Below, in pieces: positions 5,765 to 45,791 of a stretch of 47,841 bases of DNA; the first letter of the stretch is position 1, and each line of letters opens with the position of its first letter. The notes under the pieces are model-generated. The model had not been told where the DNA came from. It saw nothing but the letters and a program-made list of their open reading frames with translations, and did no database searches. The translations under genes and the position numbers were made by a program. The stretch comes from Sedimenticola hydrogenitrophicus (GTDB taxonomy: Bacteria; Pseudomonadota; Gammaproteobacteria; Chromatiales; Chromatiaceae), in NCBI RefSeq assembly GCF_025175675.1, contig NZ_JANIOA010000034.1, positions 1-47,841 on the forward strand. Direction: 5' to 3'.

Positions 5765-5850
5765 GTAGGGTGATGAGTGGTACAGGGATATACCGTTTTC
5801 GGGCATAAACCGGTAGGCGCATCCACCAATGTCACTGGGTGGATAACCCC
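5765..5850. repeat. GTAGGGTGG...CCACCAATG repeat interrupted by a GGGA-loop hairpin unit
   Basis: The repeat GTAGGGTG...ATAAACCGGTAGGCGCATCCACCAATG is split after GTAGGGTG by about 30 bp containing GGTACAGGGATATACC (5779-5794). Uninterrupted copies (5999-6046 and 15902-15936) show what the parent looks like. The hairpin stem has one mismatch and the loop is GGGA. The hairpin matches 11 of 12 positions of the CsrA SELEX consensus RUACARGGAUGU. Confidence 0.7.
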
Positions 5851-5965: not shown

Positions 5966-6203
5966 TTATTCATCCGGTTCGGCCATGGTTTGCAGCCTCA
6001 TAGGGTGGATAAGCCGGTGGGCGCATCCACCAATGCCACTGGGTGGCAGTGTGCAGCCACGGTTGATTTCATCGGCAACGACTCCATATTGGGGCCATGG
6101 CTTTGACCGTGGGTATGGTATCTATCCGGGCAGTTGATCCGGGGGTGCGGTTTCCACTATTGTGCGTCTGCTACCCCGATCGACTACCCGGATTTACAGG
6201 CAA

Positions 6204-6280
6204 CCGATGAAAAACTGGCAGGAGAGACAATTTTCACGGCCGCAGGCCGCCCGCCAGGGTGCGGCATAGGGATGTGCCGC
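6204..6280 (+). promoter_or_regulatory. Repeated 5' leader with CsrA-like hairpin ahead of the ABC ATPase start
   Basis: The 80 bases ending at the start codon (6204-6283) match the leader of the CcoG-like gene (complement of 45712-45791) with only three differences. The last 20 bases before ATG, 6261-6280, form an 8-bp stem with GGGA loop. Two of the three differences fall in this stem and keep pairing (C-G to U-G, U-G to C-G). The loop AGGGA is the only good Shine-Dalgarno and is eight bases from ATG, so hairpin formation or CsrA binding could block translation. CsrA control is an inference. Confidence 0.6.
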
Positions 6281-7210
6281 ATGAATGCGCTCGACATCAG
6301 CGACCTGCGCAAGGTCTACAAAAACGGCTTTGAGGCCCTGAAGGGGATAGACGTCAGCGTTGCGGAGGGCGACTTCTTCGCCCTGCTGGGGCCGAACGGG
6401 GCCGGCAAGTCCACCGCCATCGGCATTATCAGTTCCCTGGTCAACAAGAGCTCCGGTCGGGTGGAGGTGTTCGGCCACGATCTGGACCGTGATCCCGAAG
6501 GGGTCAAGTCCTGTATCGGCCTGGTACCGCAGGAGTTCAACTTCAATATGTGGGAGCCGATCGGCGAGATCGTGGTCAATCAGGCCGGCTTCTACGGCAT
6601 CCCCCGCAAGGAGGCGTGGCAGCGCGCCGAGGAGAGCCTGCGCCAGCTGGACCTGTGGGACAAGCGCCTGCAGATGTCGCGCACCCTGTCGGGCGGCATG
6701 AAGCGCCGGCTGATGATCGCCCGGGCCCTGGTGCACCGGCCGAAACTGCTGATCCTGGATGAGCCGACCGCCGGGGTGGATATCGAGATCCGCCGCTCCA
6801 TGTGGGAGTTCATGAGCGAGCTGAACCGCCAGGGGACCACCATTATCCTCACCACCCATTATCTGGAGGAGGCGGAGAGCCTCTGTCGCAACATCGCCAT
6901 CATCAATCAGGGGCGTATCGTGGAGCACTCGCGCATGGACCAGCTGCTGCACCAGCTGCACACCGAGACCTTCGTGCTGAACCTGCGCGACCGCATCACG
7001 GAACTGCCGCAGCTGCAGGGGTTTGAACTGAAACGGCTGGATGAGCAGCGGGTCGAGGTGGCGGTGAGCAGCGGCCAGAGTATCAATCAGCTGTTTGAAC
7101 AGCTCTCCTCCCAGGGGCTCGGAGTCACCTCGCTGCGCAACAAGCAGAACCGCCTGGAACAGCTGTTCATGAACATGGTGGAGAGCGCGCGTAACGGGGC
7201 GCTCCAATGA
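6281..7210 (+). CDS. ABC-2 type exporter, ATP-binding subunit (YadG-like)
   Basis: A 309-residue ABC ATPase. Walker A is GPNGAGKST (residues 37-45), the signature SGGMKRR is near residue 138, Walker B LLILDEPTAG follows, and the switch His is in TTHYLEEAE. The C-terminal 80 residues form the extra domain seen in ABC-2 exporters. It overlaps the permease gene by four bases (ATGA), so the two are translationally coupled. The start at 6281 is preferred because the ABC fold begins at once; in-frame ATG 6272 lies inside the leader hairpin, and the upstream open frame is the repeated leader. The closest type is E. coli YadGH, whose substrate is unknown. Confidence 0.92.
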   Translation: MNALDISDLRKVYKNGFEALKGIDVSVAEGDFFALLGPNGAGKSTAIGIISSLVNKSSGRVEVFGHDLDRDPEGVKSCIGLVPQEFNFNMWEPIGEIVVNQAGFYGIPRKEAWQRAEESLRQLDLWDKRLQMSRTLSGGMKRRLMIARALVHRPKLLILDEPTAGVDIEIRRSMWEFMSELNRQGTTIILTTHYLEEAESLCRNIAIINQGRIVEHSRMDQLLHQLHTETFVLNLRDRITELPQLQGFELKRLDEQRVEVAVSSGQSINQLFEQLSSQGLGVTSLRNKQNRLEQLFMNMVESARNGALQ

Positions 7211-15878: not shown

Positions 15879-16137
15879 GTAACTGCTCACGGGGTAAGGA
15901 TGTAGGGTGGATAAGCCGGTAGGCGCATCCGCCAATGCTCACGGGGTGATTGTCCTGCCTTGCCGGCCTCACGTGATGGCTTGTCTCCTCGAATCCGGCC
16001 CCATTTTCAGCGCCTGCCCAAACTCGCTTCGCTCAAACAAGGGCAGGCTTGAATCTGAGAATGGGGCCGGATTCGAGGTGCCATCAAGATCGGCCAACAA
16101 GGCAGGCCAATCACGTACAGACCGGGTGAGTAGTTAC
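15879..16137. mobile_element. Long-palindrome MITE-like element, family 2, copy 1, with a nested 41-bp unit
   Basis: Ends GTAACTGCTCAC (15879-15890) and GTGAGTAGTTAC (16126-16137) are inverted. The interior is itself palindromic: CGAATCCGGCCCCATT pairs with AATGGGGCCGGATTCG, and GCCTGCCC pairs with GGGCAGGC. A second copy is at 19018-19224. Near the left end, a GTAGGGTGGATAAGCC-type unit (15896-15936) is bracketed by the direct repeat GCTCACGGGGT (15885-15895, 15937-15947). Otherwise 15748-16250 has no gene. Confidence 0.75.
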
Positions 16138-17526: not shown

Positions 17527-17724
17527 GGGAGTCTGTCGGACCTAATGCTGATTTACTGCGGAAAATCGGGATTGGGCCAGATTTTCGGCTCTTTTTCATT
17601 AAATGGGTCCACAAGTCCATCCTTGGGCCCGTAAACGGTGCATTCCCGCACCACTTCTCCCCTGTAAATATCGGTCTCAAACCGGCTTTCCCTCGCTACG
17701 ATCGGTCGAGCTCGACAGACTCCT
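17527..17724. mobile_element. MITE-like element, family 3, copy B, with a nested hairpin unit
   Basis: 198 bp, an inverted relative of 11854-12017. Ends are GGGAGTCTGTCGGACCTAA and (complement) AGGAGTCTGTCGAGCTCGAC. The middle carries CGTAAACGGTGCATTCCCGC (17630-17649), whose complement forms a GGTGC...GCACC hairpin related to the GGGA-loop family; this block is absent from copy A. The element sits between the sigma-54 promoter at 17481 and the upstream motif at 17813. Confidence 0.75.
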
Positions 17725-19017: not shown

Positions 19018-19224
19018 GTAACTACTCACCCGGTCTGTATGCGATTGGCCTGCCTTGTTGGCCTCACACGATGGCTTATCTCCTCGAATCCAGCTCCTTT
19101 TTCAGCGCCTGCCCAAACTCGCGGCGCTCAAACAAGGGCAGGCTTGAATTTGAAAACGGGGCCGGATTCGAGGCGCCATCAAGATCGGCCAACAAGGCAG
19201 GCCAATCACCCCGTGAGAAGTTAC
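19018..19224. mobile_element. Long-palindrome MITE-like element, family 2, copy 2
   Basis: Inverted ends near GTAACTACTCACC (19018-) and GTGAGAAGTTACC (ending 19224). The interior matches 15948-16125: CCTCGAATCC...TTTTTCAGCGCCTGCCC and CAAACAAGGGCAGGCTTGAAT, then GGGGCCGGATTCGAGG. It lacks the 41-bp nested unit of copy 1. It lies between pdsO and the sortase target gene, splitting this operon. Confidence 0.75.
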
Positions 19225-34914: not shown

Positions 34915-35032
34915 GTCCGTAAACGGTACATTGCATCCTCGGCTCCGTTATCGGTACATCCCTGTACCACTCCTCATGTACCACTCCTCACCGCGGCAAT
35001 GGTGGATGCGTCTACCGGCTTATCCACCCTAC
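34915..35032 (-). repeat. GGGA-loop hairpin unit joined to a GTAGGGTGG repeat
   Basis: On the minus strand the order is GTAGGGTGGATAAGCCGG..., then GAGGAGTGGTAC twice, then GGTACAGGGATGTACC (complement of 34953-34968), then CGATAACGGAGCCGAGGATG, CAATGTACCGTTTACGG. The hairpin contains GTACAGGGATGT, identical to the CsrA SELEX consensus RUACARGGAUGU. The rest of 34852-35076 shows no gene. Confidence 0.7.
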
Positions 35033-37080: not shown

Positions 37081-37179
37081 GGTGTGACAAATGTTGGGGT
37101 CCCGATTGACCAGGGCGTAGTGTACAACAGAAGCGCCGGGGGCATTCATCACGCTGAAACAATTAGCTGGGCTGATCCC

Positions 37180-37440
37180 TTAGGACCCGCGCAAGAATAA
37201 GTTCCTGTATTCGGTCGCCCCCTGGACCCCGCTGGCGGCGTGACGCTTTTTGCCAAGGGAGCGGCTTTGTCCATAGATGGACTTATGCCGCGGAGGCCAT
37301 GAGGAGTGGTACAGGGATGTACCGTTTACGGAGCCGAGGATGCAATGGCCGGGAGCGGCCATTGCCTGCAAAGCGTGCCTTGCCAGCGTGGCCCAGGAAC
37401 GCCCTCGGTACTACGGAATTATTCTTGCGCGGGCCCTTAG
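37180..37440. mobile_element. MITE-like element, family 1, copy 2, with a nested hairpin insertion
   Basis: 261 bp. Inverted ends are TTAGGACCCGCGCAAGAATAA and its partner read on the other strand, CTAAGGGCCCGCGCAAGAAT. It matches 22152-22324 but holds an additional block (37266-37350) flanked by the direct repeat GGGAGCGGC (37257-37265, 37351-37359). The block carries GGTACAGGGATGTACC (37308-37323), an exact CsrA consensus hairpin, followed by CGTTTACGGAGCCGAGGATG. No gene is seen in 37153-37552. Confidence 0.8.
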
Positions 37441-37552
37441 GGAAATACCCTATTGAAGTGGCAACTTTTAACCAGTTAATCTCGTCTGCCGTGCCGTTTC
37501 GGAAGATTCCCGGACACTATAACAACAAGGCGCGGTTCTGGAGGGAGGTGGA

Positions 37553-44706: not shown

Positions 44707-45714
44707 TTACTGTTCCTGAAGGCCGGCCTGCAGGCCGGGAGGCGGTTGGCCGGTCGCCGCCGATGTGGCGTGCGGCGATTTCCTGCCGCCGGGATCGCGC
44801 CCGGTGACCACCGGCAGCGCCTCCAGGTCGGCCACCCATTTGAGCAGCCCGGGGCGGGTCTGCTGCGCCTGCACCTGGTTGCAGGCCGATATGCACTGGG
44901 CACATTCGGTGCAGGTGAACATCTTGCGTTTGATCGAGCGCGGCTTCAGCCGCATCGGGCAGACGTTGTCGCAGGCGTTGTTGCAGTCGGAACAGAGGCT
45001 GGCCCGCTTGCGGTCGAAGCCGACCACCATGGCCTTGTCGTTGGCCATCCAGGCCAGGCTCTGGAACAGGCCCACCGCACAGCCGAAACGGCAGAACAGG
45101 TGGCGGGCGAACATGAACTCGATAAACAGCAGCAGGGTACCGATGCCGAGGAAGCGCATCTGGTTGGGTGTCAGTGAGGCGCTCAGGAGATTGTGATAGA
45201 TCTCGAACGGCGGCAGCAGGTAGGTCAGCAGGGAGAGCGCCCAGAGAAAGGCGAAGAACAGGGCGGCCAGCACCGTCAGCGGCCAGAAGCGCCGGTCCGG
45301 CTTCTGCACGCTGCCGTTGGCCTGCAGTTCGGGCAGCGGGTTCTTTTCCCAGATACTCGGTTTGCCGCTGGCCCGCTGCATCAGCTTGTTGATGGTCTCC
45401 ACCACCGAGAAGTGGGGGCAGAGCCAGCCACAGTAGAGTCGACCATAGCGCCAGGCGGTCCAGATCAGGCCGCCACCGACCACGACAATCGGCAAAAAGC
45501 CGCGAAACACGAGATTAAAGGCCGCCTGCCCGGGGCCGATCTCACCGGCCATGAAGGCATCCAGTCCCAATGTCCAGTGTTGGCCCAGGAAGAAGAAATG
45601 GTACTGGGTCAGGTCGAAACGGAACAGGTCGAGGGGCGGGGCCAGCACAAACAGGGCGAAAAAACCGGCCTGAAACCAGAACCGGTAGTTCTGCAGTTTG
45701 GTGGCGCTTTTCAT
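44707..45714 (-). CDS. CcoG/NapH-like polyferredoxin membrane protein
   Basis: A 335-residue protein. Four or five membrane helices (FWFQAGFFALFVLAPPLDLF; FLPIVVVGGGLIWTAWRYGR; LTVLAALFFAFLWALSLLTYL; FLGIGTLLLFIEFMFARHLF) include the CGWLCPH and CRFGC motifs typical of NapH/CcoG/RdxA, followed by a soluble part with CSDCNNACDNVCP and CTECAQCISACN, two 4Fe-4S clusters. Between norQ and norD it may feed electrons for maturation of NO reductase. Its 80-base leader is almost identical to that of the ABC ATPase at 6281, including a CsrA-like hairpin immediately before ATG 45714. It ends two bases before norD. Confidence 0.9.
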   Translation of the reverse strand: MKSATKLQNYRFWFQAGFFALFVLAPPLDLFRFDLTQYHFFFLGQHWTLGLDAFMAGEIGPGQAAFNLVFRGFLPIVVVGGGLIWTAWRYGRLYCGWLCPHFSVVETINKLMQRASGKPSIWEKNPLPELQANGSVQKPDRRFWPLTVLAALFFAFLWALSLLTYLLPPFEIYHNLLSASLTPNQMRFLGIGTLLLFIEFMFARHLFCRFGCAVGLFQSLAWMANDKAMVVGFDRKRASLCSDCNNACDNVCPMRLKPRSIKRKMFTCTECAQCISACNQVQAQQTRPGLLKWVADLEALPVVTGRDPGGRKSPHATSAATGQPPPGLQAGLQEQ

Positions 45715-45791
45715 GCGGCACATCCCTGTGCCACACCCTGGCGGGCGGCCTGCGGCCGTGAAAATTGTCTCTCCTGCCATTTTTTCATCGG
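45715..45791 (-). promoter_or_regulatory. Repeated 5' leader with CsrA-like hairpin ahead of the CcoG-like gene
   Basis: This is the second copy of the leader at 6204-6280. The hairpin just before ATG (complement of 45715-45734) contains GGCACAGGGATGTGCC, an extended stem with GGGA loop and the ACAGGGATGT core of the CsrA consensus. The leader also reads in frame with the gene from an ATG at 45780, but the stem-preserving changes argue for an RNA role. Confidence 0.6.

Follow-up and report, generated by a model that had tools for sequence, protein, structure and literature searches.

The window, by which we mean the whole 47,841-nucleotide stretch of the Sedimenticola hydrogenitrophicus contig NZ_JANIOA010000034.1 that was analysed, contains two copies of a short repeat, here called type B, which is probably a mobile palindromic element of about 75 bases and the start-codon form of a wider family with four hairpins. 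We consider it probable that this element enters ATGA(A), rebuilds the start codon, and supplies a leader that keeps the following gene (gene 2) expressed by stop/start coupling. The element would often enter at the overlap of the stop (TGA) and the start (ATG) of two genes, perhaps as single-stranded DNA, and the ATGA at its right end would let the downstream gene begin with ATGA again. The leader would be translated by ribosomes that come from the upstream gene or are recruited by the Shine-Dalgarno sequence of the unit itself; these would open the last hairpin and then reinitiate at the ATG of the overlap. Expression of gene 2 would thus survive along a path from gene 1 through the leader peptide to gene 2, each step using a stop/start overlap. 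Copies that preserve this coupling would survive, while their hairpins would decay later and the leader frame would remain. From the sequences we infer that the leader is translated, that reinitiation takes place, that mobility involves the hairpins in their DNA form, and that the mover is an enzyme provided in trans. The start-codon form we read as being tolerated because translational coupling is preserved. A broader formulation is plausible but more tentative: type B might be a leader cistron that transposes. As a DNA-hairpin element homing on ATGA overlaps of stop and start, it would rebuild the start and insert a translated, frame-keeping mini-gene between coupled genes, could multiply there in tandem with the operon left intact, and might carry CsrA sites.

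Two repeat kinds among six hairpins

Six GGA-loop hairpins had been reported in the preliminary description as related copies, and all of them were found at the reported positions and strands. They belong to two repeat kinds with different flanks instead. Type A comprises four of the hairpins, namely 34953-34968 (minus strand) and 37308-37323 (plus), which are recognised in the window and by further copies in the genome, and the diverged copies 5779-5794 (plus) and 17637-17652 (minus), which are recognised from the window sequence. The remaining two, 6261-6280 (plus) and 45715-45734 (minus), are type B. That the hairpins are repeats is beyond doubt. The published CsrA consensus, GTACAGGGATGT, is indeed present in the hairpins 34953-34968 and 37308-37323. 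Of the other copies, 5779-5794 and 45715-45734 have one mismatch each to this consensus and 6261-6280 has two, and the loop of the 17637 copy is GGGAA and not A-N-GGA-N. As a linear motif the consensus occurs in the window no more often than chance allows (11 matches with at most two mismatches versus a mean of 6.73 after shuffling, 11 or more being obtained in 6 of 100 shuffles). The hairpin form is found beyond chance. In 400 kb sampled from the genome, CANGGANG is placed on a stem of at least five pairs in 32 of its 329 occurrences, which is the highest share among the 64 middle triplets, and A-N-GGA-N ranks second of 256 loop types once the closing C-G pair is left free. Based on a simple gene caller 28 of these 32 hairpins are intergenic, and many are type-A copies. 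There were no Rfam matches at the gathering score in the window. At six loci, searched with E-values up to 1, the only matches on the element were sub-threshold ones in a copy that adjoins a tRNA gene (L128; BjrC1505 with 35.3 bits at a cut-off of 50, GcvB with 21.2 bits at a cut-off of 42).

Type A is a repeat dispersed through the genome; its core is GGAGTGGTACAGGGATGTACCGTTTACGGAGCCGAGGATG, and a single 101-base query retrieved 55 matching pieces from the genome. The hairpin at 37308-37323 is located inside a MITE-like element (37176-37443) whose 25-base terminal inverted repeats are 92% complementary. Among 43 copies, collected by a pattern fixing the rest of the stem and the A and GGA of the loop, the stem beside the loop is TA/TA in 38, TG/CA in four, and TG/TA in one, and both N positions of the loop are variable; the 17637 copy of the window shows that the core can change, too. 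With respect to genes predicted by the simple caller, 12 of the 43 copies are sense and nine antisense to co-directional genes, 13 are found between convergent and seven between divergent genes, and two at an edge. Because the type-A copies show no clear preference for the transcribed direction (12 sense versus 9 antisense), the general role as CsrA sponge that had been suggested for the stand-alone copies is unsupported. A sponge RNA of the CsrB/RsmZ type was rejected on the absence of a strand bias, 12 versus nine copies being too few to speak against a weak one. The distribution of type A is the pattern of a DNA repeat and not that of a transcribed regulator. A MITE-like copy in L052 (about 1501-1546; compared with L033-L035) does not have type A at its GGCCATGGATGGCC hairpin, as if type A had entered the loop of the GGA hairpin at a MITE site of this kind. 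Two other repeats were noticed in the window. A short palindromic repeat (ATAAGCCGGTGGGCGCATCCACC...), which we take to be REP-like, is present at 5805-5842, 6009-6046, and 15911-15948 and adjoins the type-A hairpin at 5779, and a direct repeat of 167 bases and 91% identity is found at 15948-16114 and 19043-19209.

The type-B unit spans 78 bases, of which the hairpins at 6261 and 45715 represent only the last part, the preliminary description having overlooked the leader ORF, the ATGA ends, and the exact site of insertion. The two units of the window are 96% identical over 82 bases, and the mean column identity of 16 aligned units is 89%. The unit folds into four hairpins, the first with an AGGA loop, two small ones, and the last with the loop CAGGGATG, whose 3' arm extends into the final ATGA. 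ATGA is found at both ends, with the left end being GTGA or ATGC in two of the 16 aligned units. The first window unit extends from ATGA to ATGA at 6207-6284 on the plus strand (R1 match of 100.4 bits, supported by genome copies and the fold), and its hairpins are at about 6208-6236, 6237-6249, 6250-6259, and 6260-6281. Its 20-codon leader ORF (6207-6269) ends early at a TAG, 11 bases before the ATG of the gene, and not at the overlapping TGA. The last ATGA provides the start codon of an ABC transporter ATPase gene (6281-7210, plus; Pfam PF00005, 9.7e-31). The second unit, at 45711-45788 on the minus strand (R1 match of 100.9 bits), is spanned exactly by a 25-codon leader ORF whose TGA stop overlaps the downstream ATG (ATGA). 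Here, the last ATGA starts a gene for a ferredoxin-type protein (CcoG/NapH-like; 44707-45714, minus; Pfam PF12801, 8.4e-10), which matches TIGR02745 below its cut-off and has a longer in-frame start at 45780 that falls within the unit. In both units the last hairpin (6261-6280 and 45715-45734) has the loop AGGGAT, and the GGGA is located 8 bases before the ATG, so that the GGA does occupy the Shine-Dalgarno position, as had been proposed.

In the 16-unit alignment 96.3% of the pair cells are standard and five pairs are changed on both sides. This number of double changes and the covariation score were reached in none of 500 shuffles, whereas the count of further pair types was reached in 399 of the 500. 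Thus, the paired stem changes that had been read as a sign of RNA pairing are real for type B and its relatives, and the type-A stem varies as well, but they do not prove pairing as RNA, a DNA hairpin being at least as likely. There is also a long type-B form (L017 at 1435-1560, L066, L080, L147, and L150) in which the loop of the last hairpin is enlarged by additional sequence immediately 5' of GGGATG. This additional sequence holds GGA-loop hairpins (e.g. CTGCATGGATGCAG) and leaves the frame intact. To judge from these long forms, new modules seem to land in the loops of GGA hairpins.

Insertion at start codons and the leader frame

Comparison of the genomes shows, at the level of sequence, that type B is an insertion at an exact point with the start codon restored, because relatives lack the unit at exactly this point. 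Two junctions demonstrate this, those of hemA-prfA and hypC-hypD (these names as well as ksgA and cca were assigned by recognition and are presumably correct). The hemA-prfA junction is filled with one unit in G006 and in G005 and with two in G002, versus a plain ATGA overlap without unit in six of the nine genomes of the genus, including this one. Between hypC and hypD a unit is found in G000 (the long variant) and G006, and among the 10 of 17 loci listed the junction is empty in G001, G002, G003, G005, G008, and in G014, which belongs to another genus. Both junctions are continuous apart from the unit, reading ...ATGA... when empty and ...ATGA-unit-ATGA... when filled. Excision or transposition of type B was not seen. 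The mobile repeat of the earlier proposal is supported.

Type B is present in all nine Sedimenticola genomes examined, with at least 91 covariance-model matches (E-values up to 0.01). This genome has at least 25, corresponding to 20 type-B units at 13 loci and five diverged relatives; like all our counts of element matches these are lower bounds, the first-look candidates that were scored numbering 150 in the searches of the genus and of this genome and 33 per genome in the search of 143 genomes. The exact type-B pattern was found in S. selenatireducens DSM 17993, S. hydrogenitrophicus SN1189, and one contig named as a Lysobacteraceae MAG. The MAG copy (L134, 495-572) precedes a gene closely resembling the Fic-family gene of this genome (L016), which has a leader unit of the same kind. 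This suggests that a Fic-type gene and its leader may have moved together, or that the MAG is misbinned.

Clustering before start codons, which had been put forward as a check, holds for type B in the covariance-model search of the genome. At 11 of the 13 loci type B ends directly at the start codon of a gene, compared to a share of 0.209 among non-genic ATGAA sites (p 1.7e-6), this background share being approximate because the gene calls of the 400-kb sample come from a simple in-house caller (77% coding). Without the locus L019 it is 11 of 12 (p 3e-7), and a 31-base type-B fragment before another gene (L024) was left out of the 13-locus count. Two loci are not on a gene start. One, on contig 122, is a three-unit array with nothing but a 19-codon frame behind it. 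The other is the truncated L019, from which an 83-codon and then a 5-codon frame, each with an ATGA overlap, lead to a 427-codon frame. All 11 genes behind type-B units begin with ATGAA, versus 49 of 308 genes in the 400-kb sample. These genes are unrelated to each other. According to the family search they encode an ABC ATPase, a ferredoxin-type protein, a response regulator with PAS domain, a phosphoribosyl-AMP cyclohydrolase, a SpoVR, a phosphoesterase, an RRM protein, a Fic protein, and one protein without family, and two more are, by sequence recognition, presumably hypD and a dihydrolipoyl acyltransferase gene. The preference for start codons could alternatively have arisen from selection among random insertions, or by gene conversion between copies.

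The interior of type B is open in one frame, usually of 25 codons, which starts at the first ATG and is closed by the TGA of the last ATGA. In 41 of 44 arrays located at gene starts a single leader of 21 to 77 codons runs from the unit's own start to the NTGA overlap; these arrays were hand-picked from the match list, include one MAG copy, and only partly cover weak or contig-end matches among the 91. The overlap is ATGA in 40 of the 41 and GTGA in one, and in three of them it is formed with a second unit, which itself overlaps the gene. Adding L142 and L019, the frame is kept in 43 of 46 arrays, having survived deletions, tandem copies, and the insertion of a MITE. The three exceptions are the 6207 copy of the window (L002) with its early TAG, L013, which has lost its 5' part, and L138, where the first unit has lost its 5' part and the second is intact. 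In L142 (2032-2271; G006:C4) a MITE-like element splits the type-B unit before a SpoVR-like gene, but a 79-codon leader remains open through it, up to the ATGA at which the gene starts. In most tandem arrays the inner units have four additional bases and no stop, so that the whole array is one frame. At many loci the stop of the upstream gene is the TGA of the first ATGA, the upstream open frames having 119 to 500 codons. Exact insertion, restored start, and kept frame together would allow ribosomes to pass from gene 1 to gene 2.

Of 27 type-B copies that were folded, ten have an energy z-score above -1 and eight do not have a GGA hairpin with a five-pair stem, and the leader frame is kept in all of these. 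In addition, for nine 78-base copies with three to 23 substitutions the single chances of an open frame are between 0.11 and 0.72 and their product is about 5e-5, for copies that were chosen by the analyst and are not all independent. Because hairpins are lost first while the frame stays, and given the nine-copy probability, the frame is constrained in the diverged copies and their GGA hairpins are not.

A constrained frame could also mean that the 25-residue product itself is selected, for attenuation or as a small functional peptide, and that the unit is a spreading peptide cassette. The frame kept in those 43 arrays and leader residues such as QFSRPQAARQGAAQG, which recur among arrays, are in line with this explanation. 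We nevertheless think it very unlikely, because the residues diverge even at one and the same site (before cca in G001, G004, G007, and G008), lengths range from 21 to 83 codons including tandem fusions, and there is a second kind of unit whose in-frame sequence differs. The leader peptide matches neither Pfam nor NCBIfam, and the recurring residues are a consequence of the hairpin DNA.

If type B is indeed a coupled mobile leader, it shows how important genes such as prfA, ksgA, and cca can survive the arrival of a mobile element at their most sensitive point, namely through a rebuilt start codon and preserved translational coupling. The operon pairs with and without coupled leader would be natural before/after pairs, in which the effect of the leader and of the GGA hairpins is measurable. 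It would further follow that hairpins resembling the CsrA consensus can be mobile-element structure in such genomes, and that annotated start codons near type-B units may be wrong.

The wider family and CsrA

With a family model including the diverged relatives, matches were obtained in at least 57 of 143 gammaproteobacterial genomes (E-values up to 1e-4), and at least 33 in this genome (E-values up to 0.05). In the family alignment, which was fitted to the model, 79 cells are changed on both sides and the covariation score is 0.535 compared to 0.150 after shuffling. The triloops of the middle part are C-GNA-G in 119 of 221 cases with all four N represented. C-GNA-G loops are unusually stable in DNA. 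G-T pairs account for 26 of 2063 cells in the family versus 20 of 392 pairs in 17 tRNAs. The family also has 31 A-C cells and 86 G-A or A-G cells, both including misregistered helices, and the G-T share alone can be compared with the tRNA control, because the ARAGORN brackets leave A-C mismatches unpaired. The rare G-T pairs and the C-GNA-G loops favour a DNA hairpin, although young copies would also show few G-T pairs.

Members of the family are found in various places. Two relatives are located within open frames of more than 200 codons inside genes (L155 and L157, the latter antisense within a gene that we take to be tnpB-like), one in a distantly related genus of another family occupies an ATGA start (L195), and others adjoin tRNA genes within partial copies of tRNA 3' ends. 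For example, in L221 (2111-2750; G156:C140) and L228 (G042:C107) partial tRNA 3' ends are arranged in tandem by an intact tRNA gene, and each partial copy has a family element in the T-loop (GGTTCGA-element-ATCC). Clusters of family elements on both strands are present in an apparent defence island and prophage (L216 and L219; G169 and G158), and in L219 three genes start within the left end of antisense elements. A phage origin of type B was dismissed because one type-B unit queried had no match among 50,697 phage records. The plasmid search gave one weak match, from one family relative.

CsrA and RsmE sites follow the rule of an A-N-GGA-N loop closed by C-G. This genome has a single csrA gene (one PF02599 match, E-value 3.2e-25). 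Type B could be a mobile CsrA-binding leader that persists through CsrA repression of the downstream gene, one dimer perhaps bridging the first and the last GGA hairpin in an iraD-like manner. The loops fit well. Of 80 distinct family copies 72 have GGA in the last loop and 75 have it in the first, most last loops are A-N-GGA-N closed by C-G, the type-B GGGA is at the Shine-Dalgarno position, and the longer unit variant (L017) adds GGA hairpins. There is also a precedent: in Escherichia coli, according to PMC5574718, CsrA represses a 27-codon ORF (ORF27) whose stop overlaps the start of iraD. The iraD leader resembles type B as a short ORF with GGA sites and a stop over the gene start (PMC5574718). 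However, it is a single resident leader and type B a multi-copy mobile unit, on which CsrA action is only possible.

We regard such a CsrA-maintained leader as unlikely. In the eight diverged copies of the 27 the GGA hairpins are gone, yet the frame is kept in every one, and only two of the 27 have a first GGA hairpin whose five-pair stem is uninterrupted, so that a strong second site is not general. Furthermore, the occurrence of the family does not track csrA. The gene was found in 120 of the 143 genomes of the class, and the family is present in seven of the 23 genomes without detected csrA versus 50 of the 120 with it (lower-bound counts; Fisher p 0.36), some of the seven assemblies being incomplete or contaminated. 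Among these csrA-negative bearers G046 is 100% complete and has a single match; G156 is 95% complete and has ten matches, and was scored negative because it does not appear among the csrA positives. G041, G102, and G132 are less than 90% complete, and G109 is 7% contaminated. The element family as a whole does not appear to depend on CsrA. Of the classic CsrA-type leader proposed in the preliminary description, the mobile repeat, the site-like loops, and the GGA over the Shine-Dalgarno sequence are supported; CsrA as the reason why the sites exist or are kept is unsupported. It is possible that CsrA acts on the GGA loops of young copies and represses the leader and thus the gene, as a side effect or a later use.

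The mover and comparison with known repeats

A Y1 transposase match was obtained for 43 of the 57 element-bearing versus 51 of the 86 other genomes (p 0.05). A motif scan revealed no type-B unit flanking the five Y1 matches of this genome. RAYT/IS605 seems an unlikely mover in view of this result and of the weak class-wide association. That type B is an ordinary REP/RAYT-type repeat which overlaps start codons by chance is quite improbable in our view, even though it is a short palindromic repeat and REPs are known, from PMC3733652, to overlap or lie inside ORFs and to provide stop codons by their GTAG ends. Type B ends in ATGA and no GTAG or CGTC tag was seen, its enrichment at start sites is left unaccounted for, 14 of the 57 bearers do not have a Y1 match, and the motif scan of L157-L161 placed just one family member close to a Y1 gene, the one inserted inside the tnpB-like gene of L157.

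The listings retrieved from the open-licence PubMed Central literature contained no account of an element rebuilding the start codon and bringing a coupled leader cistron. What is already known are small palindromic elements in coding sequence (RPE, REPs; PMC3733652) and, in related bacteria, repeats before start codons (TAACTGA; PMC4679880). For the TAACTGA direct repeats of Beggiatoaceae, which are located before start codons, it has been proposed that a post-transcriptional regulator binds them (PMC4679880). They share with type B the position directly 5' of start codons and the occurrence in sulfur-oxidising gammaproteobacteria. Unlike type B they are tandem 7-base repeats without GGA and with stops in three frames, which leave no leader ORF, and the passages of PMC4679880 consulted do not mention hairpins. 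The GTAG/CGTC-tagged REPs with their RAYT resemble type B as dispersed short palindromes that at times provide the stop codon for flanking ORFs (PMC3733652), but type B has ATGA ends, another set of hairpins, and no consistent Y1 transposase. The Rickettsia palindromic elements (RPE), finally, are small, palindromic, and dispersed, and some are placed in frame within protein genes (PMC3733652). This is paralleled not by type B itself but by its relatives L155 and L157 in the open frames of genes, and the CGTC tag of RPE is absent from type B. In contrast to RPE, type B is located on start codons, rebuilds them, and forms a separate tiny cistron with four hairpins carrying GGA and GNA loops.
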